Positions 3,490 through 28,089 of a stretch of 64,000 nt of DNA are shown in pieces. Both the position numbers and the translations under genes were made by a program. The DNA is from Acididesulfobacillus acetoxydans (lineage in GTDB: Bacteria > Bacillota > Desulfitobacteriia > Desulfitobacteriales > Desulfitobacteriaceae). The stretch is taken from the NCBI RefSeq assembly GCF_902729405.1, contig NZ_LR746496.1:682001-746000 (forward strand), given 5' to 3'. The notes beneath the pieces were generated by a model. That model searched no databases. It had not been told where the DNA came from and was given only the letters and a program-made list of their open reading frames with translations. Position 1 is the first letter of the stretch, and every line of letters begins with the position of its first letter.

Positions 3490-3532
<43 letters not shown>

Positions 3533-3557: not shown

Positions 3558-3591
<34 letters not shown>

Positions 3592-3648: not shown

Positions 3649-3679
<31 letters not shown>

Positions 3680-3813
3680 ACCGACCTCAAGATGAGATTT
3701 CCCACGAGCGTAAGCTCGGTAAGACCCCTGAAAGATGAACAGGTTGATAGGCCCGATGTGGAAGCGCCGTGAGGTGTGAAGCTGACGGGTACTAATCGGT
3801 CGAGGGCTTGACC

Positions 3814-4024: not shown

Positions 4025-4140
<116 letters not shown>

Positions 4141-4145
4141 TAAAG

Positions 4146-12892: not shown

Positions 12893-14026
12893 GTGACGGT
12901 GAGAAATCATATGGGGCGTGATTGTGTGGCTATTCAGGTCAATAAGGGGAATGACGAAAATCTTATAATAACCTTCGAGTACAGTCCGGCGAGGGTGAAA
13001 AAAGTGAAGCAAGTAACCAGACGATGGAACCCCTTGGGAAAGTACTGGGAAATGCCTTTTACCGAAGATGCGGTGGAACGTCTTGTAAAAGCGTTTGCCG
13101 ACGAAGAGGTAAGATTTGACCCGTCCATCGATCTGAATTGGACGGATGCCCCATTCCTGGGACCAGAAGGGCTGTCCCGGTTAAAACGCCTTCTCGATGA
13201 AACGGAGTCGGCACTTACCCTCCGGGGTTACAGTAGCCAAACGATAGAGGCCTACAAGGGCCATGCGGAACGATTCCTCGTTTTTACAAAGAAACTGCCT
13301 GTGGACATTGATCAGAAAGATATCGAAAAGTATCTCCTTCATTTGCTCGAACATGGGGAACGATCAAGTTCATACGTGAACCAGGCAATCAGCGCAATAA
13401 AACACCTCTTCAGGGACACGGAACAAATGCAGAGCGTGGCTAACTTGCGGTTGCCAAGACCAAAGAGAGAGCAGAAACTACCCGATGTCTTGAGTCGGGA
13501 AGAAGTACAAAACGTCCTTAAGCAAGTAAGCAATTCCAAACATAAAGCCATCCTGGCACTGACCTACTCAGCGGGTCTAAGGGTCAGTGAAGTAGTGAGC
13601 ATCCGAATCAAGGATATCGATGTCCAACGTATGCTCATCCATGTGAGACAGGGCAAAGGAAGAAAAGACAGATATACGATTCTATCAAAGACTGCAGTCG
13701 ACGTCCTACGAATCTATATGAGGCAGTACAATCCATCTGATTGGCTGTTCCCAGGGGAACAGGCTGGAACGCACCTTACCGAGCGCTCCGCCCAGAAGAT
13801 TTTTGAGACAGCCTGTAAAAAAGCCGAAATCAAAAAAGATGTGTCGATCCATTCCCTGAGGCATTCGTTCGCAACCCACTTGCTCGAAGCGGGGACTGAT
13901 CTAAGATATATCCAGGAGCTCCTGGGACACAAAAATTCCAAGACGACAGAAATCTATACACATGTTAGTCAGAAAGACATCGGCCGTATCCGAAGTCCGT
14001 TAGACAGCTTGAATCTCGATGGGTAG
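12893..14026 (+). CDS. XerC/D-like tyrosine recombinase, putative integrase of the cassette array
   Basis: A site-specific recombinase of about 377 aa. An N-terminal domain of about 80-90 residues (FEYSPARV ... RRWNPLGKYWEMPFTEDAVERL) resembles the small extra domain seen on some bacterial XerC-like integrases and, loosely, a HARP-type fold. Then come a SAM-like core-binding domain and a catalytic domain with Arg in SAGLRVSE, Lys in QGKGRKDR, HSLRHSFATH, GHKN and the nucleophile in EIYTHVS. The C-terminus RSPLD is like integron integrases. Only about 57 residues separate KDR from HSLRH, so the IntI-specific insertion is absent. Start uncertain: GTG at 12872 or 12893 or ATG at 12911. AGGGGTG at 12881 favours 12893. 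The attC-like array begins 77 nt after the stop, in the same orientation. Confidence 0.85.
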   Translation: MTVRNHMGRDCVAIQVNKGNDENLIITFEYSPARVKKVKQVTRRWNPLGKYWEMPFTEDAVERLVKAFADEEVRFDPSIDLNWTDAPFLGPEGLSRLKRLLDETESALTLRGYSSQTIEAYKGHAERFLVFTKKLPVDIDQKDIEKYLLHLLEHGERSSSYVNQAISAIKHLFRDTEQMQSVANLRLPRPKREQKLPDVLSREEVQNVLKQVSNSKHKAILALTYSAGLRVSEVVSIRIKDIDVQRMLIHVRQGKGRKDRYTILSKTAVDVLRIYMRQYNPSDWLFPGEQAGTHLTERSAQKIFETACKKAEIKKDVSIHSLRHSFATHLLEAGTDLRYIQELLGHKNSKTTEIYTHVSQKDIGRIRSPLDSLNLDG

Positions 14027-14109
14027 GCAAAGGCGGTATATATGAAATACCATTCGCATATAATCCTGCCGACAAATATTTAACGAATTTCGCTAAATTA
14101 ACGTTATGT
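14027..14109 (+). other. Putative attI-like primary site
   Basis: Between the recombinase stop and the first cassette lies an AT-rich stretch ending in AAC-GTTATGT (core GTTATGT at 14103-14109), the same right-hand core as the attC-like sites downstream. It lacks the paired arms of an attC, as expected of an integron attI. The second RmlD-like cassette in this window is joined to a full attC at exactly this core, showing this is a cassette boundary. Confidence 0.6.
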
Positions 14110-14147
14110 ATAATTCGCTTGCATGTTATGAATCGGGGTCTGTTTGG

Positions 14148-15005
14148 ATGAAGAAAATCATTGTCATTGGGTCAAGTGGATATTTAGGGACAGCTATTAC
14201 AGATTTGGCAAGTCGAACTTACCCAGTGATTGCCACATATCGCACCACCCCTTGTCCAGTTTACAATAGCAACACGGGTCATGTTCGTGTAGATTTTGAA
14301 GATCAACAGAGCGTTATCGTTATACTACGGCTGATTCAAAAAACTGATATAGTGATTGTTGCATCAAATGTTGAATATGGCTCACTGAACAAAACAATTC
14401 TCTGCAATTACCATGGCATGCTATACACTTTGCAGAGAGATAGAATCAAAACTATCTTTATCTCATCAGATGCAGTTTTTGATGGGAAGGAAGATAAATA
14501 CGCTGAGGACAGTGTTCCTAATCCAATTACCGATTATGGAAAGCAGAAATTTAAGTCGGAGAGGATTATCGGCGAGCGTCAGAATGTAATCATTCGTACC
14601 AGTTATATATACGGCAGTAACCGATACGTAGTAGACAAAAGGTTTTGGGAAATTGAAAATGCAGCGGAAAATGACAGCACGATCAATAAGGCATCAAATC
14701 TAATTCGAAATCCAATTCACGTTGTAGATCTAGCGAAGGTTATTCTACTACTGAAAGAAAAGACTGGAATATTCCATGTTGCTGGACCAAGGATGTCAGC
14801 ATATACGTTTTACCATTTTCTTGCGAAAGAGGCAGGAATTATCGTTGATATTAAGGAAGTAATGCTAAAACAAGAACAGGCGAACGAAATTCCTCTAAAC
14901 ACAAACTTAGTTTCCAATAAGCTTCGTAATTTGGGAATCCATATACCGAGCGTGAAAGAGAATAGTGGAAGAATTTATCCCGGGTCGACGGCGAACTACA
15001 CATAA
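14148..15005 (+). CDS. RmlD-like NAD(P)-dependent sugar nucleotide reductase (cassette 1)
   Basis: The product (about 285 aa) is a short-chain dehydrogenase of the dTDP-4-dehydrorhamnose reductase type. The Rossmann motif (IVIGSSGYLG) is right after the start, an ISSDAVFDG segment carries the catalytic Ser/Thr region, and DYGKQKF supplies the Tyr-x-x-x-Lys pair. It would reduce or epimerise a nucleotide-linked sugar. Start ATG at 14148 is chosen because the Rossmann fold begins there. An in-frame ATG at 14106 lies inside the core site. The stop codon falls inside the left core of the following attC. An identical copy lies inverted at 20533-21390. Confidence 0.8.
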   Translation: MKKIIVIGSSGYLGTAITDLASRTYPVIATYRTTPCPVYNSNTGHVRVDFEDQQSVIVILRLIQKTDIVIVASNVEYGSLNKTILCNYHGMLYTLQRDRIKTIFISSDAVFDGKEDKYAEDSVPNPITDYGKQKFKSERIIGERQNVIIRTSYIYGSNRYVVDKRFWEIENAAENDSTINKASNLIRNPIHVVDLAKVILLLKEKTGIFHVAGPRMSAYTFYHFLAKEAGIIVDIKEVMLKQEQANEIPLNTNLVSNKLRNLGIHIPSVKENSGRIYPGSTANYT

Positions 15006-15074
15006 CACGGTATTAGCGACACTTTGTAATGCTATTGGGTGAAAAGACGCATCGTTAATACCTGAACGTTATGT
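15000..15074 (+). other. attC-like recombination site 1
   Basis: Left core ACATAAC (15000-15006) and right core GTTATGT (15068-15074) are exact inverted complements. Inner arms GGTATTAGCGA and CGTTAATACC pair with one mismatch. The two sides differ by extra unpaired bases, as in the extrahelical bases of integron attC sites. Length 75 nt. Confidence 0.8.
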
Positions 15075-15156
15075 GACATTGCATGATAGTTGTTTGTGGA
15101 TAAAATTTTGTGCAAGAACTTTATGTGCCATTCATTCTGAAGGAGCTGTATTACTG

Positions 15157-15798
15157 GTGAGAATTGACAAAAACGATGTGCTTGGGGGACAATCCATATT
15201 AAAGGTGAGACAGTTAATGAAGCGTGGCTCATGGGGTCCTTGGAACGAGACTTTAGTTAGTGATGTTCTTGGTTTGGACAGTGCCGACTCTAATAAGTTA
15301 ATTCAAGTTCTTATAGACCAAGGTTTCGTTGAGCGAATGACTGATCCCACAGGCGAAGTTCAATATATAAATACAATAAAAGGCAACGCTTTGAGTATGG
15401 CTTCAGCTGCAAAGCCAATATCTCGTGTAACGGCAGAGAAGAAATTGGAAGAGTTCCTTAATCGGGTACGACAAGTTAATGGTAATCCAGACTACTGCTA
15501 TTTTGTAAAGAAAGTATTATTATTTGGTAGCTTACTGACTGAGGCAAATGAGGTTAATGACATTGATTTAGCTGTCGAACTCGTAAATAAAGAGGATTTT
15601 CATAGAAGGCATAGAGACAGGGTAAACAAGGCGTTAAAAGAGGGTCGCCGTTTTCCGAACGTAGTTGCTCAGGCTTATTGGCCCAAAGAAGAGGTTTTAC
15701 GTTTTCTAAAAGCTAGGTCAAGAGTTTTTAGTATACATGATATGGATGATCAAATCCTTCACAAAGTAACAAGTAAGGTTATTTACGAACAACCATAG
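15157..15798 (+). CDS. Nucleotidyltransferase-like protein with N-terminal winged-helix region (cassette 2)
   Basis: A 213-aa protein. The first half (VLGLDSADSNKLIQVLIDQGFVER) looks like a winged-helix DNA-binding segment. The second half has a minimal nucleotidyltransferase signature, GSLLTEANEVNDIDLAVEL, with a GS motif followed by a D-x-D metal-binding pair. Related domains occur in MNT-type antitoxins and transcription-linked NTases. The substrate is not known. GTG start at 15157, with AAGGAG 11 nt upstream, is preferred over the upstream in-frame codon at 15073, which lies in the core site. A second, broken copy is split between 16677-16779 and 21532-22029. Confidence 0.6.
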   Translation: MRIDKNDVLGGQSILKVRQLMKRGSWGPWNETLVSDVLGLDSADSNKLIQVLIDQGFVERMTDPTGEVQYINTIKGNALSMASAAKPISRVTAEKKLEEFLNRVRQVNGNPDYCYFVKKVLLFGSLLTEANEVNDIDLAVELVNKEDFHRRHRDRVNKALKEGRRFPNVVAQAYWPKEEVLRFLKARSRVFSIHDMDDQILHKVTSKVIYEQP

Positions 15799-15823
15799 GG
15801 AAACTTTTGAAGGGTGGCAACGT

Positions 15824-15901
15824 CACATAACAGAGTGTTTGCGACGCTTTGCCAATATGCAAGCGGGTTGGGACGCGTCGCAAACACTCAGGACGTTATC
15901 T
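15824..15901 (+). other. attC-like recombination site 2
   Basis: Left core ACATAAC (15825-15831) and right core GTTATCT (15895-15901). Inner arms GTGTTTGCGACGC and GCGTCGCAAACAC are perfectly complementary over 13 bp. There are 3 unpaired bases on one side and 7 on the other. This is one of the clearest sites in the array. Confidence 0.82.
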
Positions 15902-15968
15902 GAAACTGCTGGGTTTGTTAAAGATGATTAAGCTGAGATTTTTAAGATGATTAAGAGGAGTTGTTGCA

Positions 15969-16217
15969 ATGATGGATGAAATAGTGAAGGAGCTTACCCT
16001 TTTGCTCATGTACCTAACTTCATGGAAGGAAGATGTGGGTTTTGCTCAAGCAAGGCGTACATGGAAAGGATATCCTTTCGAGACAATCAACAAGTTAACA
16101 GATGAGGAATTGATATCAGGTAGCCAGCGCTCAAAGTCGGTGTATTTGACAGATGAAGGGGTTAAATTGGCTGAACAATTAGGAAAGAAATATTTGAACG
16201 AAGAGATAAAGCTCTAA
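15969..16217 (+). CDS. DUF6429-like small protein (cassette 3, first gene)
   Basis: A basic protein of 82 aa with the pattern LLLMYLTSW ... ARRTWKGYPFETINKL ... LISGSQRSKSVYLTDEGVKLAE, which I recognise as the DUF6429 type, a small winged-helix-like family of unknown function that is frequent on mobile DNA. A GAGG-type ribosome-binding site lies just upstream. It is followed 34 nt later by a small Cys-rich protein in the same cassette. An identical copy is at 18836-19084 in inverted orientation. Confidence 0.65.
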   Translation: MMDEIVKELTLLLMYLTSWKEDVGFAQARRTWKGYPFETINKLTDEELISGSQRSKSVYLTDEGVKLAEQLGKKYLNEEIKL

Positions 16218-16251
16218 GCTTGATTTTTATCTATCGATGAGGAGAAGATGA

Positions 16252-16494
16252 ATGACTAGAATTTCGATTAAAGAATATGCCAAGAAGCACATTAAGTGTA
16301 ATCCCGATGAGAATCTTAAGGATGTAATATCAAGACTAAAGGATGCCGTTGAAAGAAAGAATTCAGGGGCTACATGTAGCATATGTGGAGCATCAATTTG
16401 GGCAGTTGGATCTGCGGTTGGTGGATTTGAAGGCTGCTTCACTTGTATTACTGGAGAACATGACGATTCCGAGGATTATGAGGTTTTTTTGTGA
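16252..16494 (+). CDS. Small Cys-rich putative zinc-binding protein (cassette 3, second gene)
   Basis: An 80-aa protein with a C-x-x-C pair (CSIC) and a second C-x-x-C pair (CFTC) separated by about 22 residues, so a zinc-ribbon-like site is likely. I recognise no family. It shares a cassette with the DUF6429-like gene. Ribosome-binding sequence GAGGAGA lies upstream of the ATG. An identical copy is at 18559-18801. Confidence 0.55.
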   Translation: MTRISIKEYAKKHIKCNPDENLKDVISRLKDAVERKNSGATCSICGASIWAVGSAVGGFEGCFTCITGEHDDSEDYEVFL

Positions 16495-16517
16495 TTGTAT
16501 TCCTTTGCCGCAGCATC

Positions 16518-16594
16518 AGATAACAGCGTATTCCCAAAATCTGAGAGGATATGAATGCAGTAACCAGACTCCGGGAACACGCGAACCGTTATGT
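16518..16594 (+). other. attC-like recombination site 3
   Basis: Left core AGATAAC (16518-16524) and right core GTTATGT (16588-16594). Inner arms GCGTATTCCC and GGGAACACGC pair with a single mismatch. After this site the start of a second nucleotidyltransferase cassette follows, identical to the one after site 1. Confidence 0.78.
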
Positions 16595-16676
16595 GACATT
16601 GCATGATAGTTGTTTGTGGATAAAATTTTGTGCAAGAACTTTATGTGCCATTCATTCTGAAGGAGCTGTATTACTG

Positions 16677-16779
16677 GTGAGAATTGACAAAAACGATGTG
16701 CTTGGGGGACAATCCATATTAAAGGTGAGACAGTTAATGAAGCGTGGCTCATGGGGTCCTTGGAACGAGACTTTAGTTA
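16677..16779 (+). pseudogene. 5' fragment of the second nucleotidyltransferase-like gene
   Basis: From the core site at 16588 up to the IS border at 16779 the sequence is identical to the start of cassette 2 (15068-15258). The coding part begins at the GTG at 16677 and is cut by the IS element after about 34 codons. The remaining 3' part is at 21532-22029 on the minus strand. Confidence 0.85.
16774..16779. repeat. IS target-site sequence TAGTTA (left flank of IS copy 1)
   Basis: The 6-bp target TAGTTA is in the intact gene at 15252-15257. Its partner copy is not at the other end of IS copy 1 (which has TAATTA) but next to IS copy 2 as TAACTA (22024-22029), the same hexamer on the other strand. 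Confidence 0.75.
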
Positions 16780-18436
16780 GATTGCCCTGAAAAAGTAGGT
16801 TTGCAAACCGTCCCTTGACCGACCCCCTGGGATCGGAATACATCAGTATGAATCCCCGGCATTGTAGAGGGGTATTCCTTGCCATTTCCTAATTCATGGC
16901 GGCCAATTTTCTTAAATTGTAGGTCAGTATGCCAAATCCCACCCAGATGCTAACTCCGCGGTGTCCTCTGAGCAGACTCCTCCCCAGGCCATATTTACGT
17001 TTCAAGATGCTAATGGTTCCTTCTCCACCAGCACGCCATGCTTGCAGACGTCGAAACCATCTTTGCCTTTCATGGGTTTGTCGCTTCTGAGTTTTCTTGC
17101 CCTTCTTTGGGATGGATATTCGTTTTATCCCCAGTTCGGTTAAAGCTGCTTCATTCTTACCACTGCTGTAACCACGGTCAGTGGCAACAGCGTAAGGGAT
17201 CCGCCCAGTGTTTTCGATGTGGCGTCTCACGGTGCCCAAGAGCAAACTTTCATCGCTGGGGTTGCCTATATGGATTTTGTAATCCGTAACCAGACGGTCT
17301 TCATTCTCTGTGATTTCGGTCTTATAGCCAAATTCCGTCGGGTTCTTCAACTTGCCCTTCTGGATAGGCCTCGCGTCAGGATCATAGAGGCTAATTACCC
17401 GTTGCGGGATGTGTGTTTTTCCGCTGTTCACCTGAAGCGTTTGATTGACAATCTTGTCCGTGGTATGAATGAGCTTGTCCAATTTCTCGATCGTATTTTT
17501 TAGAGCTGGGCTTATTTGCTCGCCCCAAGTCTCTTCAACTTTATCCATTATCCGATGGGCATCGGAAATCGTCTCAATCGCTTTATCCACAAGCTTATCC
17601 GTGATGTTGCGAACCTCCTGTACCGCCTCATGGCTTCGCCGTTTCAAGGTCTTGCCGATTTCCAGTATCCGTTTTTTCGTTGAACGAAAACGATTCCTCA
17701 TCTTAGGAACTGTGCCACTCACTTGATCGCAAAGGCGGTTCGCCTGTCGGGTTATGGTTTTTACTGCATCCGCCAGCAGATGGGCATCCGTTGGGTAGTG
17801 AACATTGGATTCGGTTACTGTAGTGTCCGTACGCAGCCGCCGGTTCCGTGTCATCTGTTCCTGACTCGCCTTAGTAACAAGTTTTTTGTTCAGATCCTCA
17901 ATGATTTCGTCCCCGTATTTCTGGCTCAGCTTGATCAATGTCGTACTGTGCGGCACTAAGGCATCGAGATCAACGCGGCAGAACCGCCGCCATTTGATAC
18001 TGTCACTGACTTCGCTAACAAGTGTTTCATAGCCAAATCCATAACAGAATTTGAGAAACATTAGACGGAGATAAGTTTCCACCGGAACAGTTGGTCGGCC
18101 AATACGAATATTCCAGTGAGAGAGAAAGGGCTCCATAAATCGCTCATCATCCAAGAGACGATCAACCGTCTTGAGTTCTGGGCTTAGTTCCAGCACTTCC
18201 TTCGGCAAAATGGAGTCCCAAATTGTAAGCTGTTCGTTGCGAAGTCGTAACATTTTTTGCCCCCCAAAAAAGGATTTTCATGTCCCTTTGGAGAACCACA
18301 GGAACGAGGAATTCTCTAAAGGGTGGTTGTGGAGTTTCGTTGTTTGGTCACTTCTAAATTTCCACAAAATCCTAGTGAATTCCTTTTTGTTTCGAGGGAT
18401 TTTTGCACAGAGTTTGCTTAGTTTTTCAGGGCAATC
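16780..18436 (-). mobile_element. IS element, copy 1 (1657 bp)
   Basis: A complete element with terminal inverted repeats GATTGCCCTGAAAAA at both ends and one transposase gene on the minus strand. Flanks are TAGTTA on the left and TAATTA on the right, so they do not match, although this element makes 6-bp target duplications (seen for copy 3). The mismatch indicates rearrangement between IS copies. Confidence 0.92.
16889..18253 (-). CDS. DDE transposase with DUF772 N-terminal domain (ISNCY/IS5-like)
   Basis: A complete 454-aa transposase. The N-terminal part (RLLDDERFMEPF ... GRPTVPVETYLRLMFLKFCYGFGYETLVSEV) is the DUF772-type domain. A central coiled region precedes a DDE catalytic core with Asp in LRTDTTVTE, Asp in ATDRGYSSG and Glu near RAGGEGTISILKRKYG. 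It would cut and join at the GATTGCCC ends. The family name is my reading from the domain pattern. Two visible differences from copy 3 are KNPTEF and LRKL here against KSPTEF and LRRL there. Confidence 0.88.
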   Translation of the reverse strand: MLRLRNEQLTIWDSILPKEVLELSPELKTVDRLLDDERFMEPFLSHWNIRIGRPTVPVETYLRLMFLKFCYGFGYETLVSEVSDSIKWRRFCRVDLDALVPHSTTLIKLSQKYGDEIIEDLNKKLVTKASQEQMTRNRRLRTDTTVTESNVHYPTDAHLLADAVKTITRQANRLCDQVSGTVPKMRNRFRSTKKRILEIGKTLKRRSHEAVQEVRNITDKLVDKAIETISDAHRIMDKVEETWGEQISPALKNTIEKLDKLIHTTDKIVNQTLQVNSGKTHIPQRVISLYDPDARPIQKGKLKNPTEFGYKTEITENEDRLVTDYKIHIGNPSDESLLLGTVRRHIENTGRIPYAVATDRGYSSGKNEAALTELGIKRISIPKKGKKTQKRQTHERQRWFRRLQAWRAGGEGTISILKRKYGLGRSLLRGHRGVSIWVGFGILTYNLRKLAAMN

Positions 18437-18458
18437 TAATTAATAACCCAGGCATGTC

Positions 18459-18535
18459 GTATAACGGTTCGCGTGTTCCCGGAGTCTGGTTACTGCATTC
18501 ATATCCTCTCAGATTTTGGGAATACGCTGTTATCT
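18459..18535 (-). other. attC-like recombination site (inverted segment, after DUF6429/zinc pair)
   Basis: Reading the minus strand, left core AGATAAC (18535-18529) and right core GTTATAC (18465-18459). The interior equals attC-like site 3. Beyond the core the minus strand reads a short ORF-free stretch up to IS copy 1. Confidence 0.75.
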
Positions 18536-18558
18536 GATGCTGCGGCAAAGGAATACAA

Positions 18559-18801
18559 TCACAAAAAAACCTCATAATCCTCGGAATCGTCATGTTCTCC
18601 AGTAATACAAGTGAAGCAGCCTTCAAATCCACCAACCGCAGATCCAACTGCCCAAATTGATGCTCCACATATGCTACATGTAGCCCCTGAATTCTTTCTT
18701 TCAACGGCATCCTTTAGTCTTGATATTACATCCTTAAGATTCTCATCGGGATTACACTTAATGTGCTTCTTGGCATATTCTTTAATCGAAATTCTAGTCA
18801 T
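18559..18801 (-). CDS. Small Cys-rich putative zinc-binding protein (second copy)
   Basis: Identical at protein level to the 80-aa protein at 16252-16494, with CSIC and CFTC pairs, but on the minus strand because this stretch of the array is inverted. It lies between its own attC-like site and the DUF6429-like gene, as in the first copy. Confidence 0.55.
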   Translation of the reverse strand: MTRISIKEYAKKHIKCNPDENLKDVISRLKDAVERKNSGATCSICGASIWAVGSAVGGFEGCFTCITGEHDDSEDYEVFL

Positions 18802-18835
18802 TCATCTTCTCCTCATCGATAGATAAAAATCAAGC

Positions 18836-19084
18836 TTAGAGCTTTATCTCTTCGTTCAAATATTTCTTTCCTAATTGTTCAGCCAATTTAACCCCTTCAT
18901 CTGTCAAATACACCGACTTTGAGCGCTGGCTACCTGATATCAATTCCTCATCTGTTAACTTGTTGATTGTCTCGAAAGGATATCCTTTCCATGTACGCCT
19001 TGCTTGAGCAAAACCCACATCTTCCTTCCATGAAGTTAGGTACATGAGCAAAAGGGTAAGCTCCTTCACTATTTCATCCATCAT
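18836..19084 (-). CDS. DUF6429-like small protein (second copy)
   Basis: Identical at protein level to the gene at 15969-16217, in inverted orientation, with the same upstream and ribosome-binding sequence. Here the preceding cassette is the cell-wall-binding gene rather than the nucleotidyltransferase gene. The cassette itself was therefore duplicated as a unit. Confidence 0.65.
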   Translation of the reverse strand: MMDEIVKELTLLLMYLTSWKEDVGFAQARRTWKGYPFETINKLTDEELISGSQRSKSVYLTDEGVKLAEQLGKKYLNEEIKL

Positions 19085-19151
19085 TGCAACAACTCCTCTT
19101 AATCATCTTAAAAATCTCAGCTTAATCATCTTTAACAAACCCAGCAGTTTC

Positions 19152-19225
19152 AGATAACGTTTCGCGTATTCCCGACGCGCCATTTCACATGCATATTACC
19201 AGGTGTTGGGAATACGCTGTTATCT
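19152..19225 (-). other. attC-like recombination site (inverted, after cell-wall-binding cassette)
   Basis: Cores AGATAAC (19152-19158) and GTTATCT (19219-19225). Inner arms GCGTATTCCCGACGC and the opposite GGGAATACGC pair. It differs in its centre from the other sites, so it is a distinct attC. Confidence 0.78.
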
Positions 19226-19301
19226 GCAGTGCCGATTAAGAATACCCTCACATTTCACTTATCATATTTCTTACTTATATATATTCTTTTAATAGCCATA
19301 G

Positions 19302-20360
19302 TTAAGGCACTGTAATCCCTGTTATTAGGTAAATGGCCTGCTTGACTGCATTATCACTTACAGCCCCTGTTCCTCCAAGTACAATTACATGCCTAAGGCT
19401 GCCTCCGTCTGGTTCCGTCTTAATATATTCCAATGCATGTACTGATTCCTGTGCAACAGAATCATGCTTTACAAATATTATGGGTGATCCTTGATACCCA
19501 CCTATACTTCCTGCTAATACAGAGCCCGTTAGGGCATCTGGATAATCTTCGCCAGTAGCGATAAATGCTGTTTCAAACCCGCTGCCCACCATGCGAGCAT
19601 TTGTTTCATACTCCGATCCATTAATACCAATCGCATACGGGTTATATGCCCTAGGGTAAATTGAAGCTATACTGTTACTCAAATCACCTACGGTTATAAC
19701 GTCAGAGCAACCATCTAAATATTCCTTTTCACCTTTCACAGTTAAACCAGAACTTGATACTAGTAATAGGGTTCGATCTTGATTCGATGATACATGCGGA
19801 GCTACTGACAATGCATCATAAAAATTCTGGTCGGAGACAAGAAAAAAATTATGAATGTTCAACGTTTTGGCTATCATAAAGGATGTTTCTGCTCTATCAA
19901 TTCCGCCTATTTGCTGAACATTGGAAGGGGAAAATCCCATACTAATAAGATATTGTGTAAATTCTATTGGCACTACTCCTGTTCCACCAAGTATAAATAC
20001 TTTTCCACTAGCACTAACGTGTTGATGAACATACTTAAAGGTCTCTTGACTCCCCTGGGCATCAGTAGTTTTATCCAGTAATAGTATCGGTGCTTTATTA
20101 ACATTAGCCAAGGCTGTTCCTGATACCGCATCTGGCCAATTGTTACCTGACGCTAAGACAACTGCTTGGAACTTTTGACCCATCGAATAATTGATACCAA
20201 ATTGCTTTGCCAGTTGATCTGCAATTGCTGTGGCTGTTTGATAACGGTCTTGGCCATAAATGCGTTGAATTGAAACTGTAGGTGATTGTTCTGCTGCCAA
20301 GACTTGAGAAGGTAAGGAGAAGAAAAGAAGAATGAACACACCTATAAACCATCTCCTCAC
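19302..20360 (-). CDS. Secreted cell-wall-binding protein with CWB2 repeats (cassette)
   Basis: A 352-aa protein with a cleavable signal peptide (about residues 1-22, ending VLAAEQ). It then has repeated cell-wall-binding type 2 modules, recognised by repeating segments such as RIYGQDRYQTA, VLASGNNWPDA, VFILGGTGVV, IGGIDRAETS, and again IATGEDYPDALTGS and VIVLGGTGAVS. Such modules attach proteins to the Gram-positive wall. No separate catalytic domain is seen. The start is GTG after AAAGGAG. It lies between two attC-like sites with no second copy in this window. A secreted wall protein fits a Gram-positive host. Confidence 0.85.
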   Translation of the reverse strand: MRRWFIGVFILLFFSLPSQVLAAEQSPTVSIQRIYGQDRYQTATAIADQLAKQFGINYSMGQKFQAVVLASGNNWPDAVSGTALANVNKAPILLLDKTTDAQGSQETFKYVHQHVSASGKVFILGGTGVVPIEFTQYLISMGFSPSNVQQIGGIDRAETSFMIAKTLNIHNFFLVSDQNFYDALSVAPHVSSNQDRTLLLVSSSGLTVKGEKEYLDGCSDVITVGDLSNSIASIYPRAYNPYAIGINGSEYETNARMVGSGFETAFIATGEDYPDALTGSVLAGSIGGYQGSPIIFVKHDSVAQESVHALEYIKTEPDGGSLRHVIVLGGTGAVSDNAVKQAIYLITGITVP

Positions 20361-20463
20361 GATTAACCACTCCTTTATTAATATTCTCTAAACTATAGAA
20401 GATAAGATTTCAAATTGAGCATTCACATATCCCTATCCAAAACAAATAAGACCTAGGCATTGC

Positions 20464-20538
20464 AGATAACGTTCAGGTATTAACGATGCGTCTTTTCACC
20501 CAATAGCATTACAAAGTGTCGCTAATACCGTGTTATGT
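20464..20538 (-). other. attC-like recombination site (inverted, after second RmlD-like cassette)
   Basis: Cores AGATAAC (20464-20470) and GTTATGT (20532-20538). The inner arms equal attC-like site 1, but the right core reads GTTATCT on the minus strand, joining it to the cell-wall-binding cassette instead of the nucleotidyltransferase. Confidence 0.78.
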
Positions 20539-21390
20539 GTAGTTCGCCGTCGACCCGGGATAAATTCTTCCACTATTCTCTTTCACGCTCGGTATATGGA
20601 TTCCCAAATTACGAAGCTTATTGGAAACTAAGTTTGTGTTTAGAGGAATTTCGTTCGCCTGTTCTTGTTTTAGCATTACTTCCTTAATATCAACGATAAT
20701 TCCTGCCTCTTTCGCAAGAAAATGGTAAAACGTATATGCTGACATCCTTGGTCCAGCAACGTGGAATATTCCAGTCTTTTCTTTCAGTAGTAGAATAACC
20801 TTCGCTAGATCTACAACGTGAATTGGATTTCGAATTAGATTTGATGCCTTATTGATCGTGCTGTCATTTTCCGCTGCATTTTCAATTTCCCAAAACCTTT
20901 TGTCTACTACGTATCGGTTACTGCCGTATATATAACTGGTACGAATGATTACATTCTGACGCTCGCCGATAATCCTCTCCGACTTAAATTTCTGCTTTCC
21001 ATAATCGGTAATTGGATTAGGAACACTGTCCTCAGCGTATTTATCTTCCTTCCCATCAAAAACTGCATCTGATGAGATAAAGATAGTTTTGATTCTATCT
21101 CTCTGCAAAGTGTATAGCATGCCATGGTAATTGCAGAGAATTGTTTTGTTCAGTGAGCCATATTCAACATTTGATGCAACAATCACTATATCAGTTTTTT
21201 GAATCAGCCGTAGTATAACGATAACGCTCTGTTGATCTTCAAAATCTACACGAACATGACCCGTGTTGCTATTGTAAACTGGACAAGGGGTGGTGCGATA
21301 TGTGGCAATCACTGGGTAAGTTCGACTTGCCAAATCTGTAATAGCTGTCCCTAAATATCCACTTGACCCAATGACAATGATTTTCTTCAT
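20533..21390 (-). CDS. RmlD-like reductase (second copy)
   Basis: Protein identical to 14148-15005, inverted. In this copy the cassette is preceded by a full attC-like site rather than by the recombinase, which shows where the cassette boundary lies. The open frame can be extended upstream through the attC, but a start at the Rossmann motif is the sensible choice. Neighbours are the broken nucleotidyltransferase and the cell-wall-binding cassette. Confidence 0.8.
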   Translation of the reverse strand: MKKIIVIGSSGYLGTAITDLASRTYPVIATYRTTPCPVYNSNTGHVRVDFEDQQSVIVILRLIQKTDIVIVASNVEYGSLNKTILCNYHGMLYTLQRDRIKTIFISSDAVFDGKEDKYAEDSVPNPITDYGKQKFKSERIIGERQNVIIRTSYIYGSNRYVVDKRFWEIENAAENDSTINKASNLIRNPIHVVDLAKVILLLKEKTGIFHVAGPRMSAYTFYHFLAKEAGIIVDIKEVMLKQEQANEIPLNTNLVSNKLRNLGIHIPSVKENSGRIYPGSTANYT

Positions 21391-21428
21391 CCAAACAGAC
21401 CCCGATTCATAACATGCAAGCGAATTAT

Positions 21429-21505
21429 ACATAACGTCCTGAGTGTTTGCGACGCGTCCCAACCCGCTTGCATATTGGCAAAGCGTCGCAAACACTCTGT
21501 TATGT
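21429..21505 (-). other. attC-like recombination site (inverted, after broken nucleotidyltransferase)
   Basis: Cores ACATAAC (21429-21435) and GTTATGT (21499-21505). The perfect 13-bp arms GTGTTTGCGACGC/GCGTCGCAAACAC are the same as in attC-like site 2. Confidence 0.8.
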
Positions 21506-21531
21506 GACGTTGCCACCCTTCAAAAGTTTCC

Positions 21532-22029
21532 CTATGGTTGTTCGTAAATAACCTTACTTGTTACTTTGTGAAGGATTTGATCATCCATATCATGTATACT
21601 AAAAACTCTTGACCTAGCTTTTAGAAAACGTAAAACCTCTTCTTTGGGCCAATAAGCCTGAGCAACTACGTTCGGAAAACGGCGACCCTCTTTTAACGCC
21701 TTGTTTACCCTGTCTCTATGCCTTCTATGAAAATCCTCTTTATTTACGAGTTCGACAGCTAAATCAATGTCATTTTACAAAATAGCAGTAGTCTGGATTA
21801 CCATTAACTTGTCGTACCCGATTAAGGAACTCTTCCAATTTCTTCTCTGCCGTTACACGAGATATTGGCTTTGCAGCTGAAGCCATACTCAAAGCGTTGC
21901 CTTTTATTGTATTTATATATTGAACTTCGCCTGTGGGATCAGTCATTCGCTCAACGAAACCTTGGTCTATAAGAACTTGAATTAACTTATTAGAGTCGGC
22001 ACTGTCCAAACCAAGAACATCACTAACTA
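21532..22029 (-). pseudogene. 3' fragment of the second nucleotidyltransferase-like gene, with 47-bp deletion
   Basis: The fragment resumes after IS copy 2 at the TAGTTA hexamer and continues to the stop codon. Compared with the intact cassette 2 gene it lacks 47 bp (GAAAGTATTATTA ... GAGGTTA, intact positions about 15510-15556). This shifts the frame and removes the GS catalytic motif. The gene was thus dead or dying independently of the IS insertion. Confidence 0.85.
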
Positions 22030-22138
22030 GATTGCCCTGAAAAAGTAGGTTTGCAAACCGTCCCTTGACCGACCCCCTGGGATCGGAATACATCAGTATG
22101 AATCCCCGGCATTGTAGAGGGGTATTCCTTGCCATTTC

Positions 22139-22647
22139 CTAATTCATGGCGGCCAATCTTCTTAAATTGTAGGTCAGTATGCCAAATCCCACCCAGATGC
22201 TAACTCCGCGGTGTCCTCTGAGCAGACTCCTCCCCAGGCCATATTTACGTTTCAAGATGCTAATGGTTCCTTCTCCACCAGCACGCCATGCTTGCAGACG
22301 TCGAAACCATCTTTGCCTTTCATGGGTTTGTCGCTTCTGAGTTTTCTTGCCCTTCTTTGGGATGGATATTCGTTTTATCCCCAGTTCGGTTAAAGCTGCT
22401 TCATTCTTACCACTGCTGTAACCACGGTCAGTGGCAACAGCGTAAGGGATCCGCCCAGTGTTTTCGATGTGGCGTCTCACGGTGCCCAAGAGCAAACTTT
22501 CATCGCTGGGGTTGCCTATATGGATTTTGTAATCCGTAACCAGACGGTCTTCATTCTCTGTGATTTCGGTCTTATAGCCAAATTCCGTCGGGCTCTTCAA
22601 CTTGCCCTTCTGGATAGGCCTCGCGTCAGGATCATAGAGGCTAATTA
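22139..22647 (-). pseudogene. Transposase C-terminal fragment (IS copy 2)
   Basis: This fragment encodes the last roughly 168 residues of the transposase, from ISLYDPDARP to the end. The nested IS separates it from the N-terminal part. It shares the KSPTEF and LRRL variants with copy 3 rather than with copy 1. Confidence 0.88.
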
Positions 22648-24304
22648 GATTGCCCTGAAAAACTAAGCAAACTCTGTGCAAAAATCCCTCGAAACAAAAA
22701 GGAATTCACTAGGATTTTGTGGAAATTTAGAAGTGACCAAACAACGAAACTCCACAACCACCCTTTAGAGAATTCCTCGTTCCTGTGGTTCTCCAAAGGG
22801 ACATGAAAATCCTTTTTTGGGGGGCAAAAAATGTTACGACTTCGCAACGAACAGCTTACAATTTGGGACTCCATTTTGCCGAAGGAAGTGCTGGAACTAA
22901 GCCCAGAACTCAAGACGGTTGATCGTCTCTTGGATGATGAGCGATTTATGGAGCCCTTTCTCTCTCACTGGAATATTCGTATTGGCCGACCAACTGTTCC
23001 GGTGGAAACTTATCTCCGTCTAATGTTTCTCAAATTCTGTTATGGATTTGGCTATGAAACACTTGTTAGCGAAGTCAGTGACAGTATCAAATGGCGGCGG
23101 TTCTGCCGCGTTGATCTCGATGCCTTAGTGCCGCACAGTACGACATTGATCAAGCTGAGCCAGAAATACGGGGACGAAATCATTGAGGATCTGAACAAAA
23201 AACTTGTTACTAAGGCGAGTCAGGAACAGATGACACGGAACCGGCGGCTGCGTACGGACACTACAGTAACCGAATCCAATGTTCACTACCCAACGGATGC
23301 CCATCTGCTGGCGGATGCAGTAAAAACCATAACCCGACAGGCGAACCGCCTTTGCGATCAAGTGAGTGGCACAGTTCCTAAGATGAGGAATCGTTTTCGT
23401 TCAACGAAAAAACGGATACTGGAAATCGGCAAGACCTTGAAACGGCGAAGCCATGAGGCGGTACAGGAGGTTCGCAACATCACGGATAAGCTTGTGGATA
23501 AAGCGATTGAGACGATTTCCGATGCCCATCGGATAATGGATAAAGTTGAAGAGACTTGGGGCGAGCAAATAAGCCCAGCTCTAAAAAATACGATCGAGAA
23601 ATTGGACAAGCTCATTCATACCACGGACAAGATTGTCAATCAAACGCTTCAGGTGAACAGCGGAAAAACACACATCCCGCAACGGGTAATTAGCCTCTAT
23701 GATCCTGACGCGAGGCCTATCCAGAAGGGCAAGTTGAAGAGCCCGACGGAATTTGGCTATAAGACCGAAATCACAGAGAATGAAGACCGTCTGGTTACGG
23801 ATTACAAAATCCATATAGGCAACCCCAGCGATGAAAGTTTGCTCTTGGGCACCGTGAGACGCCACATCGAAAACACTGGGCGGATCCCTTACGCTGTTGC
23901 CACTGACCGTGGTTACAGCAGTGGTAAGAATGAAGCAGCTTTAACCGAACTGGGGATAAAACGAATATCCATCCCAAAGAAGGGCAAGAAAACTCAGAAG
24001 CGACAAACCCATGAAAGGCAAAGATGGTTTCGACGTCTGCAAGCATGGCGTGCTGGTGGAGAAGGAACCATTAGCATCTTGAAACGTAAATATGGCCTGG
24101 GGAGGAGTCTGCTCAGAGGACACCGCGGAGTTAGCATCTGGGTGGGATTTGGCATACTGACCTACAATTTAAGAAGATTGGCCGCCATGAATTAGGAAAT
24201 GGCAAGGAATACCCCTCTACAATGCCGGGGATTCATACTGATGTATTCCGATCCCAGGGGGTCGGTCAAGGGACGGTTTGCAAACCTACTTTTTCAGGGC
24301 AATC
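22648..24304 (+). mobile_element. IS element, copy 3, nested in copy 2 (1657 bp)
   Basis: A complete element in the opposite orientation, inserted at the TAATTA within the transposase gene of copy 2. The target is duplicated exactly (22642-22647 and 24305-24310), which fixes the element ends and the 6-bp duplication size. Ends are GATTGCCCTGAAAAA inverted repeats. Confidence 0.95.
22831..24195 (+). CDS. DDE transposase with DUF772 N-terminal domain (IS copy 3)
   Basis: An intact 454-aa transposase, nearly identical to the one at 16889-18253, with the same DUF772-type region and DDE core. It carries KSPTEF and LRRL, as the copy 2 fragments do, suggesting that copies 2 and 3 are the closer pair and that this element moved recently. 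It may be the active source copy. Confidence 0.88.
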   Translation: MLRLRNEQLTIWDSILPKEVLELSPELKTVDRLLDDERFMEPFLSHWNIRIGRPTVPVETYLRLMFLKFCYGFGYETLVSEVSDSIKWRRFCRVDLDALVPHSTTLIKLSQKYGDEIIEDLNKKLVTKASQEQMTRNRRLRTDTTVTESNVHYPTDAHLLADAVKTITRQANRLCDQVSGTVPKMRNRFRSTKKRILEIGKTLKRRSHEAVQEVRNITDKLVDKAIETISDAHRIMDKVEETWGEQISPALKNTIEKLDKLIHTTDKIVNQTLQVNSGKTHIPQRVISLYDPDARPIQKGKLKSPTEFGYKTEITENEDRLVTDYKIHIGNPSDESLLLGTVRRHIENTGRIPYAVATDRGYSSGKNEAALTELGIKRISIPKKGKKTQKRQTHERQRWFRRLQAWRAGGEGTISILKRKYGLGRSLLRGHRGVSIWVGFGILTYNLRRLAAMN

Positions 24305-25166
24305 TAATTACCCGTTGCGGGATGTGTGTTTTTCCGCTGTTCACCTGAAGCGTTTGATTGACAATCTTGTCCGTGGTATGAATGAGCTTGTCCAATTTCT
24401 CGATCGTATTTTTTAGAGCTGGGCTTATTTGCTCGCCCCAAGTCTCTTCAACTTTATCCATTATCCGATGGGCATCGGAAATCGTCTCAATCGCTTTATC
24501 CACAAGCTTATCCGTGATGTTGCGAACCTCCTGTACCGCCTCATGGCTTCGCCGTTTCAAGGTCTTGCCGATTTCCAGTATCCGTTTTTTCGTTGAACGA
24601 AAACGATTCCTCATCTTAGGAACTGTGCCACTCACTTGATCGCAAAGGCGGTTCGCCTGTCGGGTTATGGTTTTTACTGCATCCGCCAGCAGATGGGCAT
24701 CCGTTGGGTAGTGAACATTGGATTCGGTTACTGTAGTGTCCGTACGCAGCCGCCGGTTCCGTGTCATCTGTTCCTGACTCGCCTTAGTAACAAGTTTTTT
24801 GTTCAGATCCTCAATGATTTCGTCCCCGTATTTCTGGCTCAGCTTGATCAATGTCGTACTGTGCGGCACTAAGGCATCGAGATCAACGCGGCAGAACCGC
24901 CGCCATTTGATACTGTCACTGACTTCGCTAACAAGTGTTTCATAGCCAAATCCATAACAGAATTTGAGAAACATTAGACGGAGATAAGTTTCCACCGGAA
25001 CAGTTGGTCGGCCAATACGAATATTCCAGTGAGAGAGAAAGGGCTCCATAAATCGCTCATCATCCAAGAGACGATCAACCGTCTTGAGTTCTGGGCTTAG
25101 TTCCAGCACTTCCTTCGGCAAAATGGAGTCCCAAATTGTAAGCTGTTCGTTGCGAAGTCGTAACAT
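24305..25166 (-). pseudogene. Transposase N-terminal fragment (IS copy 2)
   Basis: The first roughly 286 codons of the copy 2 transposase, including the DUF772-type domain and the first catalytic Asp region. It runs into the nested IS at the TAATTA duplication, where a few foreign codons end the frame. Confidence 0.88.
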
Positions 25167-25395
25167 TTTTTGCCCCCCAAAAAAGGATTTTCATGTCCCT
25201 TTGGAGAACCACAGGAACGAGGAATTCTCTAAAGGGTGGTTGTGGAGTTTCGTTGTTTGGTCACTTCTAAATTTCCACAAAATCCTAGTGAATTCCTTTT
25301 TGTTTCGAGGGATTTTTGCACAGAGTTTGCTTAGTTTTTCAGGGCAATCTAATTAGAGAGTGTTTTTTAAGATATTCTTTGTAGCTGGACACTTC

Positions 25396-25463
25396 CGATA
25401 ACAGCGTATTCCCAAAATCTGAGAGTTAATAACCAGACTTCGGGAACCCGCAAGACGTTATAT
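25396..25463 (+). other. attC-like recombination site 4
   Basis: Left core CGATAAC (25396-25402) and right core GTTATAT (25457-25463). Arms GCGTATTCCC and GGGAACCCGC pair imperfectly. It is shorter than the others (68 nt) and related in sequence to site 3. It opens the cassette with the deoxyribosyltransferase-like gene. Confidence 0.72.
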
Positions 25464-25538
25464 AAAATCGCGCACGGAGCGCCACATCGTGTGGCGGTAG
25501 ATAATATATTGCTGAAATTAAATTTGGAGGAGATTTTT

Positions 25539-26767
25539 ATGAATGAAAATGTTGAGAATCAAGTTGATCAGGATCTTGACGAAGTAAATGAGCACAAAGA
25601 AGGACAACACAAAGAAGAGGAAAAAACAAAAGAAAGCCAAAACGCGTGGTTGTATCTCTTAAAGATTTACCGCGTGTTCCGTTAGAAGAGGCAATTCCTG
25701 TTGCAAGTGCAATGTATGATAATGTTGCAAATGGGACAGCAACATTTAACAATATAGCAAGGTTATTAAATTCAAGCCCTAGAACAACCAAGACAAAATA
25801 TATGATATGGGGCGCTGAAGGCTATGGAATTATAATTAAGCATGAAAATAATGAATATAGCTTATCGGAAACTGGTAGAAAGATAGTTGCGCCAACGTAT
25901 TACGATGAAGATAGTGAGGCCAAAGTTAAAGCGATACTTACGCCAACCATATTTAGTAAATTCTTCACAGAATATAATAAACATCCTATTCCCCAGGAAA
26001 CGTATCTGACCAATTTATTAGAAACAAAATTGGGAATACCAAGAGAACGAGTTGAGGAAGCAAAAGAGATAATTTTAAAAAATGTAGATTTTACTGGTAT
26101 TAAAAGAACAGATGATAAAACTGGTAAAGAAATAATTGATTTAGATAAAAGTACACCAGGACCTAAAAGTGAAAAGAAAGAAGAAATTAATCCTATAGAT
26201 TCTGACAGCTTGAGTATTGATGATGAGATAGAAGAACCGGTTCAGAATCAAGAAGGACAGACATGGAATAAAACTTGCTTTGTAATTTGTCCTATTGGAG
26301 AAGAAGGCTCTACGGAAAGAAAACATTCAGATATGATATTAAAACATTTAATTCAGCCAGTACTGGAAGTATTTGGTTTTTCGGTAATTAGAGCAGACAA
26401 AATAGAACAATCTGGCCTAATTACACAACAAATACTGGAAAATTTAGTAAAGGCACGTCTGTGTATTGCTGATCTTTCGTTTAATAATCCCAATGTTTTT
26501 TATGAATTAGGGGTTAGACATTTATGTCAATTGCCTGCAATTCAAATTATTCGAAAGGGAGATAAGCTTCCTTTTGATGTGTCTCAAGGGCGTGCGATAA
26601 CTATAGATACCAGTGACGTATATACTTTAATAGATAGATTAGAGTCAGCAAAGAAAGAGTTAGCGCAATATATAACTCCAATAGTTAATAATACAAGTTC
26701 TGATGTTAGCGATGATAATCCAATAAAGGTTTATTTGCCTGGAATCAAAGTAACTATTCCAAGATAA
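25539..26767 (+). pseudogene. TIR/deoxyribosyltransferase-like protein with winged-helix N-part, broken by a frameshift
   Basis: A strong ribosome-binding site (GGAGGAG) points to ATG 25539, but that frame stops at 25685. The long frame from about 25630 to 26767 is offset by -1 and has no ribosome-binding site at its first GTG (25646). One base missing from the A6 run at 25621-25626 explains the break. The joined protein would have an acidic head, a winged-helix-like region (KDLPRVPLEEAIPVAS ... ARLLNSSPRT), a linker, and a C-terminal nucleoside 2-deoxyribosyltransferase/TIR-like domain with CFVICPIGEEG and NPNVFYELGVRH, whose Glu is the likely catalytic residue. Such domains occur in NAD-targeting or nucleotide-targeting immune effectors. 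Function here is inferred. Confidence 0.7.
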
Positions 26768-26779
26768 TAAACAGATATT

Positions 26780-26806
26780 TAGGGGCCGACGTCCTGTCGG
26801 CCTCTG
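26780..26806 (+). terminator. Hairpin after the deoxyribosyltransferase-like gene
   Basis: A compact stem (GGGGCCGAC with GTCGGCCTC) lies about 13 nt after the stop codon, with no clear T-run. It may be a terminator or an mRNA-end stabiliser. Confidence 0.4.
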
Positions 26807-26827
26807 AATCTGTGGGTGCGCGACTTT

Positions 26828-26903
26828 ACATAACAGAGTATCGCCAAAACTTCGCAAAGATGAATGTGGTTGGGACGCTTCGACAATACTCGGGACGTTA
26901 TCT
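26828..26903 (+). other. attC-like recombination site 5
   Basis: Left core ACATAAC (26828-26834) and right core GTTATCT (26897-26903). Inner arms around AGTATCGCC...AAGCG and CGCTTCGACAATACT pair imperfectly. The VOC cassette follows. Confidence 0.75.
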
Positions 26904-26999
26904 GAAATGCTCGGTCTTAATAATAATTCTTAGTACTGTGGAATTTGAAAATAAGGTTACCTTGAGCGGTTTAGTCTGTGTGGAAAGGGGTTGGAAGGT

Positions 27000-27407
27000 A
27001 TGGAGTTAAGGTTTGGTGGATTGGGTATCTTTGTTAAAGACCTTAAGACGTTGGTTGAGTTCTATGGGAATGTGTTTAGTGTAAATATCGATTGGGATGG
27101 GAATGATCCATATGCCCAGTTTGAACATGCTGGAATTCGTTTCATGATGTACGAGCGGAAGGAATTAGCTCAGTATTTAGGAACGGAAATATCATATCCG
27201 AATGGCATTAATGGCACATTTGAATTGGCTATCGATTTGCCAGATTTTGCTGATGTGGATAAAGAGTTCGAAAGAGTCCTTCACTATGGAGCTAGACCTG
27301 TAGTTTATCCACGGAATGAGCCATGGGGAATGAGGACTTCGTATGTACTTGACCCGGAAGACAATCTAATTGAGATAGGTTCCTGGGGAAAAGGCAAACT
27401 TGAATGA
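27000..27407 (+). CDS. VOC-family (glyoxalase/dioxygenase-like) protein (cassette)
   Basis: A 135-aa single-domain protein of the vicinal oxygen chelate superfamily, with the N-terminal pattern LRFGGLGIFVKDLKTLVEFYGNVF and the C-terminal pattern SYVLDPEDNLIEIG whose Glu is a typical metal ligand. Members include glyoxalases and resistance proteins such as bleomycin or fosfomycin binders. The substrate cannot be told from sequence. ATG 27000 is well spaced from AAAGGGG (27 kb minus about 15 nt). The VOC fold is common in integron cassettes (established knowledge). Confidence 0.75.
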   Translation: MELRFGGLGIFVKDLKTLVEFYGNVFSVNIDWDGNDPYAQFEHAGIRFMMYERKELAQYLGTEISYPNGINGTFELAIDLPDFADVDKEFERVLHYGARPVVYPRNEPWGMRTSYVLDPEDNLIEIGSWGKGKLE

Positions 27408-27420
27408 GGTACAAATCTAG

Positions 27421-27470
27421 AAACACATAAGGTTTGCATGATTCATTTGCCGCACTTCAGATAATTTAGG
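27421..27470 (+). other. Degenerate attC remnant at the right end of the array
   Basis: After the VOC gene, ACATAAG (27424-27430) and AGATAAT (27459-27465) resemble left-core sequences, but no matching right core follows. The array appears truncated here by the segment carrying the broken recombinase. Confidence 0.4.
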
Positions 27471-28065
27471 CATTGGGATCACGTCCGTCCAGAGGACTTC
27501 TTACGGAAGCCAGATGATGAGTTGAGAGGTGGATGTCGTGAGCCGTCGTCGAGATATCGCTGTGCCCCAGAAGCATCTGAATCGTACGTAGATCCACACG
27601 TGATTCAAGAAGGTGGGTGGCAAAACTATGCCGCAGGGTATGGACCGTAGCGGGTTTGGCGATGCCGGCTTTCTTTTTGGCCCGTCGAAAACTTTGTTCG
27701 ATACCACTGGCGGCTATGGGCTTCCCTGGAATTAGCCCAGGGAAAAGCAGGTCTGTAGGTCTATACAGTGACCCGTAGCTTCTGAGCATTTTTAGATTTT
27801 CAAGGGACAGGACGGTTAATCGATCTATGTTGTTCTTGCCACGATGGACCCGGATCATCATGTTCTTGGAATCAAGGTCTGCGATACGGAGATTCAGGGT
27901 TTCAGAAATACGTAGGCCCGAAGAGTAGGTGGTCAAGAGAATAACCGGGTGCTTCGGATTAGCCACGCGATCAAGGATAGAGAGAATCTCGGCCTTAGAC
28001 AAAACAGAGGGAAGCTTTTTAGGTCTTTTGAGCCAGTCCCTATCGGAGTATGTTAAATGCGCAAA
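27466..28065 (-). pseudogene. Truncated tyrosine recombinase lacking the catalytic Tyr
   Basis: The open frame reaches upstream only to about 28065. What is present is the catalytic domain: KKLPSVLSKAE, then Arg in SSGLRISE, HTLRHSFATH and GHSDISTT. The expected nucleophile position in the segment after STT reads AHDIHLS, with Asp where Tyr is expected. The N-terminal core-binding domain is missing. The ending SVRSPLD resembles the recombinase at the other end of the island. From the first ATG the fragment is 178 aa (27466-28002). It lies on the opposite strand to the first recombinase and is probably inactive. Confidence 0.75.
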
Positions 28066-28089
28066 AAGAGACCTTTTGAATCAGGGCCG

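Follow-up and report, generated by a model that had tools for sequence, protein, structure and literature searches.

What is the hairpin at positions 15825-15901, and to what kind of system does it belong? It lies within a stretch of 64,000 nucleotides (the window; G000:C1:682001-746000) of a 4.52-Mb single-contig genome, and a first-pass annotation had taken it for an attC-like site that folds in the bottom strand. That reading is backed by the array in which the hairpin is found, the adjoining recombinase, shuffled cassettes, constant asymmetric spacing and a bias in wobble pairing. We consider that the site is very probably the equivalent of attC in an integron-like gene-capture platform, in which the acting enzyme is the adjoining A-type recombinase that lacks the IntI-specific (I2) domain.

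The window contains six distinct attC-like sites between 14103 and 27465, present as nine full copies when inverted ones are included (Table 1). The array lies directly 3' of an intact tyrosine recombinase gene, and in the same orientation. The region just 3' of that gene is a putative attI; its core GTTATGT is the reverse complement of the R'' of the first cassette (ACATAAC). A scanner for this architecture returned seven intervals in the window, and none in six block-shuffled controls and one reversed control. A search of Rfam at gathering level found rRNA only, and the window has no LexA-type palindrome (GAACNNNNGTTC). The 23S and 5S rRNA genes are located upstream of the array at 484-4141. 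One ISNCY insertion sequence is present in three copies at 16778-25356, one nested within another, and cassette 2' has an internal deletion of 46 bp (equivalent to 15510-15555). A disrupted recombinase gene of another I2-less family, the C-type (27466-28300, minus strand), abuts the last cassette with its degenerate R''.

Table 1. Coordinates and strands of the features of the array within the window.
Feature	Position	Strand	Remarks
Tyrosine recombinase, A-type, 384 aa	12872..14026	+	NF040815 above cut-off; no IntI-specific insertion
N-terminal HARP-like domain of recombinase, residues ~18-83	12923..13120	+	family profile
Putative attI	14027..14109	+	insertion core GTTATGT at 14103-14109
Cassette 1	14104..15068	+	RmlD/NAD-epimerase-like ORF 14106-15005
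attC-like site 1	15000..15074	+	
Cassette 2	15069..15895	+	nucleotidyltransferase-like ORF 15073-15798
attC-like site 2	15825..15901	+	the hairpin discussed here
Cassette 3	15896..16588	+	two small ORFs: DUF6429; DksA-like zinc finger
attC-like site 3	16518..16594	+	
Cassette 2', left part	16587..16780	+	second copy of cassette 2, cut by insertion sequence
Insertion sequence copy 1	16778..18442	-	ISNCY family transposase 16889-18253
attC-like site 3, inverted copy	18459..18535	-	end of cassette 3'
attC-like site 4	19152..19225	-	cassette 4, CWB2 cell-wall-binding repeats, ORF 19302-20360
attC-like site 1, inverted copy	20464..20538	-	cassette 1'
attC-like site 2, inverted copy	21429..21505	-	right part of cassette 2' to ~22029
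Insertion sequence copy 2	22028..25356		interrupted by third copy 22642-24310
attC-like site 5	25396..25463	+	
Cassette 5	25458..26897	+	ORF 25646-26767
attC-like site 6	26828..26903	+	
Last cassette	26898..27465	+	glyoxalase-like ORF 26991-27407; degenerate R'' AGATAAT at end

Site 2 has the layout ACATAAC-AGA-GTGTTTGCGACGC...GCGTCGCAAACAC-TCAGGAC-GTTATCT, with the R'' core first and the R' core last. Its end had been placed correctly at 15901, while its true first base is 15825 rather than 15824. The perfect 13-bp arm that was described is exact, but the arm reaches 15 bp (GAGTG.../...CACTC) and the spacers are therefore 1 and 5 nt in length, not 3 and 7; the asymmetry itself is real. The copy of these arms at 21429-21505 is also real, although it is not independent evidence because it is part of an inverted, almost identical duplicate of the cassette. 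The sites had been said to share cores and not arms. Arm sequences do differ between sites, yet they follow a common pattern, G.G.ATTCCCG, and in the site alignment part of the loop, GGTTGGGACGC, is common as well. Nor is the spacing random; all the sites within the window are either 1/5 or 2/5.

Folding of the bottom strand

The bottom strand of site 2 folds with an energy of -22.0 kcal/mol (z -7.3), and none of 200 shuffled sequences folded as well. When this strand folds, the A/C couple that is left over (the base after AAC and the base before GTT) pairs as a G.T wobble, and only a bulge of 4 nt stays unpaired.

Comparison between sites supports the hairpin. In an alignment of 50 sites (A1) the AAC and GTTA cores are invariant, and 14 of 20 stem pairs have changed on both sides, a number that was reached in none of 500 shuffles. 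The covariation score is 0.372, compared with 0.100 when shuffled. Stem mismatches in A1 are not random and comprise 96 A.C or C.A couples read in the top strand, against six top-strand G.T. Over 150 sites the inner stem has 277 top-strand A.C or C.A couples and 25 G.T or T.G; two conserved columns supply 204 of the 277, and the remainder is 73 against 24. The bottom strand has the more stable fold in 125 of these sites and the top strand in 21; as the sites are related by descent, neither these strand counts nor the pair counts are independent events. Cross-phylum sites go in the same direction, with the bottom strand better in 59 against 25 and couples numbering 63 against 26. Note that a top-strand A.C mismatch is a G.T wobble in the bottom strand. 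Together with the unpaired excess of 3-4 nt on the R' side, this means that bottom-strand folding looks to be under selection.

Could the recombinase use the cores only as double-stranded DNA, with the hairpins doing something else such as terminating transcription? The enzyme has no I2 domain, and the related Xer enzymes act on double-stranded DNA, both of which would be in keeping with this. Against it, couples that can pair only in the bottom strand are in strong excess (277 against 25), the one-sided bulge of 3-4 nt is conserved (145 of 147 sites), and the two ends of the cassette meet within one folded arm. We regard this explanation as unlikely.

The recombinase, its relatives and their loci

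The window recombinase has the catalytic residues R237, K262, H327, R330, H353 and Y362. The first five are invariant across 47 relatives, and Y362 is conserved in at least 90%. The protein scores 240 bits with NF040815 (cut-off 220 bits), and 224 bits with TIGR02249, which is under the cut-off of 265; the latter match spans positions ~1-179 of the 315 in the profile and resumes at 233. The K motif is separated from HxLR by 59 aa, compared with 100 in IntI1 and IntI3, and about 74 of 80 relatives have 58-63 aa between the two motifs. The nearest solved structure, both by sequence and by fold, is VchIntIA (2a3v), and the window protein has 23 aa where VchIntIA has 65. Judged from its sequence the recombinase is not an IntI, the IntI-specific (I2) domain around patch III being missing. 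Separate Xer-like genes are present in the same genome, and the A-type gene adjoins an array of many sites, not a single dif site. In a phylogenetic tree IntI forms a single clade (support 100/100); the A-type was not recovered as one clade, and its monophyly is not rejected (AU p 0.054). The A-type may be either the ancestral stock of IntI or a line sister to it.

At their N-termini the relatives share ~65 residues with the pattern V.F.Y...IK...RW....K.W..P, in which the two tryptophans are nearly invariant. The HARP family PF07443 gives hits in 14 of 35 relatives, the best of them at E 2e-5, and none in the window protein; the family profile compared with the SMARCAL1 HARP domain (4o66) gives E 7e-5. 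The predicted model of the N-terminal domain has five strands and two helices, as has the HARP domain (PMC4666394); HARP domains are important for fork reversal by SMARCAL1 (PMC4666394). A Foldseek search with the predicted domain gave no significant match and did not confirm the HARP-like assignment. We hypothesize that this domain reads the folded site.

Other recombinases are found at such arrays, and a B-type or C-type enzyme (both I2-less) or a Xer pair might do the work, with the A-type as a passenger. A B-type gene is associated with the arrays of G006 (52 sites), where there is no intact A-type nearby, and lies beside the A-type in G017. In the latter the two genes, both I2-less, are in tandem upstream of the array (L059, 14278-16152). 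A C-type gene lies at the end of the window array, and in G001 and G004 such genes are located at the ends of arrays or within them; G004 has sites with only a C-type recombinase nearby and no intact A-type. In G003 (63 sites) the A-type gene is frameshifted. Against this suggestion, the A-type is the only intact recombinase at the window array, the C-type copy at the end of that array is disrupted, and an A-type gene followed by an array is seen in many phyla. We think it quite improbable that the A-type is a bystander.

Classical attC sites, taken from plasmid integrons and from loci with a true IntI, were folded using the same script as the family sites. In the classical sites the two spacers differ by 1 nt, and single-base bulges in the R'' arm are present in nine of ten. 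The spacers of the family sites differ by 3-4 nt in 145 of 147, and single-nucleotide bulges in the R'' arm are found in 10 of 147 and 0 of 29 sites. An unpaired spacer between the R and L boxes does exist, but it is one-sided (5/1 or 6/2), giving a 4-nt bulge in the bottom strand. The asymmetry had been equated with that of known integron attC sites, and this does not hold: classical spacers are near-symmetric (1 nt) with single extrahelical bases, whereas here the spacers differ by 3-4 nt and extrahelical bases are almost absent. Neither this difference nor the lack of I2 was visible in the window by itself. Simple membership of attC is rejected by direct measurement against the classical sites. 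Bouvier et al. 2009 (PMC2727003) found an extrahelical base to be the main determinant of strand choice in attC, and the present sites must set it otherwise.

The family covariance model, which like the first scanners favours unbroken stems and 1/5 spacing, found no sites in class 1, 2 and 3 integron plasmids, compared with 32 places in cross-phylum A-type loci. Because of this bias a detector blind to the asymmetry and to single-base bulges was run. Downstream of A-type recombinases the R' spacer was 3-5 nt longer in 72 of 89 hits, while at true IntI loci 23 of 33 hits were near-symmetric, where each site can count on both strands.

These data bear on the idea that the sites are an orphan cluster (CALIN) of ordinary attC sites, served by a classical IntI in trans or left by a lost classical integron. 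CALINs are reported in Firmicutes (PMC9024848), and the cores resemble the classical GTTRRRY/RYYYAAC. However, no match to TIGR02249 at E 1e-60 was found among 46 family genomes, while the identical search recovered IntI, with scores over the cut-off, in 5 of another 22 genomes. Moreover the spacers and extrahelical bases are unlike those of classical attC, and the covariance model separates the two sets (none against 32). For the genomes of the Desulfitobacteriaceae a CALIN, or an IntI acting in trans, is disfavoured by the lack of an IntI match at that threshold, and overall the idea is very unlikely to be correct. Of the defining features tested two are absent, I2 and the extrahelical bases; we therefore class this not as a classical integron, but as an integron-like system of separate type.

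Sites are present in 39 of the 46 family genomes, with 63 in G003, 52 in G006 and 51 in G017. One protein scan of genomes found A-type relatives in Paenibacillaceae, Halonatronum, Fusibacter, Bacteroidota, Nitrospirota and Nitrospinota, and further in Atribacterota, Aminicenantota, Chloroflexota, Spirochaetota and archaeal metagenome-assembled genomes (MAGs); contamination of MAG bins is possible. The pairing of recombinase and sites recurs in Paenibacillaceae, Bacteroidota, Nitrospirota, Atribacterota and archaeal MAGs. With the first detector there were 2.20 sites/10 kb downstream on the same strand, against 0.13 upstream and ~0.2 in reversed sequence. The asymmetry-blind detector gave 2.36 downstream and 0.13-0.18 upstream in loci from many phyla. 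In about 15 loci an attI-type start core of the first cassette lies 66-118 nt after the recombinase stop codon, and repeats, either direct or inverted, often precede such cores, as an attI would lead one to expect.

About half of the recombinase loci had no site with the first detector, in part because contigs end and in part because spacings differ. In Saccharibacillus sacchari at least eight sites were missed by it, and two 36-nt direct repeats located directly after the recombinase (L139, 11098-11169) are a likely attI. In L108, L112, L115, L116, L120, L123, L141, L143, L168, L169 and L185 the contig stops no more than ~0.3 kb past the A-type gene, as if downstream repeats broke the assembly. 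A Fusibacter locus (L163, 11415-14512) has four nearly identical 174-nt sites, three of them ~380 bp apart with very short cassettes between. In a Dehalococcoidia MAG (L107, 7731-10357) the downstream sites are mostly on the opposite strand.

Movement of cassettes

Cassette 2' is interrupted by insertion sequences, and one part of the array lies in inverted orientation. We infer that in the original orientation the order of cassettes was 1-2-3-2'-1'-4-3', so that cassettes 1, 2 and 3 each have two different neighbours. Each of the three is present twice, and all the breakpoints of identity fall in the (A)CGTTAT core. To the left of the two copies stand ctaaatta and cactcagg in the case of cassette 1, atacctgaa and cacgcgaac in that of cassette 2, and cactcagg and tacgcgaa in that of cassette 3. 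As read from these junctions, this is movement by whole cassettes with a fixed crossover.

Circularization of a cassette at G^TTANNN leads to the expectation that R'' will pair with the start of its own cassette, and not with that of the downstream neighbour. In 94 adjacent cassette pairs drawn from three genomes (G003, G017 and G006) the first two bases of R'' agree with the start of their own cassette in 71, compared with 26 for the downstream core; shuffling gave 16 on average and never more than 29 in 5000 rounds. When all four variable bases are required the numbers are 68 and 14, and with an independent detector they are 74 and 32 among 133. Chains in Bacteroidota behave alike, for example in L164 (GTTATGC|GCATAAC, GTTGTGC|GCACAAC, GTTAGCT|AGCTAAC and GTTAGGC|GCCTAAC). 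The nested insertion sequence copies do explain the inversion of part of the array, but that homologous recombination or an insertion sequence has shuffled the repeats with no site-specific system is hardly credible, given junctions exactly in the core although the flanking arms differ, and R'' pairing with its own cassette start in the arrays of three genomes.

The median cassette is 847 bp in length, and the ORF is directed towards the site in 82 of 92. GNAT acetyltransferases and methyltransferases are commonest among 59 cassette proteins, with single examples of a nitroreductase, an aminoglycoside adenylyltransferase and a member of the beta-lactamase family. Cassette proteins match five PADLOC models, including PDC-S18 and an Argonaute-associated nuclease. 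This content resembles that of integron cassettes.

On an Acinetobacter plasmid (L241, NZ_CP094260.1, 4974-7071) the C-terminal half of a recombinase that is 54% identical to that of the window, and after it a GTTATGT core, stand immediately ahead of tet(X3). The site that follows the gene is not an intact one, and there is no match between its R'' and the GTTATGT core. That tet(X3) is a cassette of an I2-less system is a lead. Clusters of tet(X)-catB11-XerD have been reported in Chryseobacterium (PMC11194056), and the system may bear on the mobility of some resistance genes in Bacteroidota.

Proposed reaction and comparison with known systems

In the platform that we propose, the A-type recombinase would bind a hairpin folded from the bottom strand of the site, comprising the R box (GTTANNN/NNNTAAC), the bulge of 3-4 nt on the R' side and the long unbroken arm. 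It would cut at the core beside GTT, and the cassette would be joined either to the double-stranded attI just 3' of the recombinase gene or to another site. Replication would then complete the exchange. Polarity would arise from the one-sided bulge and the conserved wobble pairs, instead of extrahelical bases read by I2, and the folded site may be read by the N-terminal HARP-like domain. In published work integrons are held to be active only with the IntI domain, which counts against such a platform, and the absence of I2 could mean a different pathway, or recombination of double-stranded DNA.

From its sequences, the reading that fits the system best is a second lineage of integrons, independent of I2. 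We think it rather probable that this lineage recombines folded single-stranded cassette sites in Bacillota, Bacteroidota, several other bacterial phyla and archaea, by means of a one-sided bulge and perhaps also of a HARP-like domain as reader. If that is true it would be either the intermediate missing from the chicken-and-egg problem of I2 and the extrahelical bases or an independent solution to it, and part of the orphan attC clusters in taxa lacking IntI would be accounted for. Escudero et al. (2016; PMC4792948) proposed that I2 and the extrahelical bases co-evolved, described the origin as a chicken-and-egg paradox, and noted that such paradoxes are solved by finding functional intermediates. 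A natural system without both, yet with arrays, attI and bottom-strand hairpins, would allow a direct test of how the two originated. It would also add to the routes by which genes are known to be captured, among them routes in cultivable Gram-positive genera such as Saccharibacillus and Paenibacillus.

A published description was not found in the open-access papers searched, preprints excluded. Surveys pick integron integrases by the IntI-specific domain (PMC2426708), which is the defining character in PMC9668308, and a system without it would therefore escape them. In Firmicutes a single complete integron was detected by IntegronFinder 2.0 (PMC9024848), in contrast to sites in 39 of 46 genomes of one Firmicutes family, with up to 63 in each.

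The closest likeness is to the integrons, both class 1-3 and chromosomal. Common to both are the array, the directed ORFs, the GTT/AAC core, an attI by the integrase, complementarity of the core to the cassette's own start and the bottom-strand hairpin, and the recombinase is nearest to VchIntIA (2a3v). By contrast, here there are no I2 and no extrahelical bases, but a one-sided bulge of 3-4 nt and a HARP-like domain; the integrase is 5' of the array and co-directional with it, with attI at the 3' end of the gene. XerA, XerC and XerD share the core fold, and the A-type matches NF040815 'recomb_XerA_Arch', a family already named 'site-specific tyrosine recombinase/integron integrase'; the A-type differs in having an extra N-terminal domain and in adjoining cassette arrays. 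Integration of CTXphi by XerCD also employs a folded single-stranded site with no extrahelical bases and recombinases without I2 (PMC4792948), but it has no recombinase of its own, no cassettes and no arrays. CALINs are likewise clusters of attC-like sites without a recognized intI, whereas here a dedicated I2-less recombinase adjoins the sites, escaping the definition of intI used in surveys.
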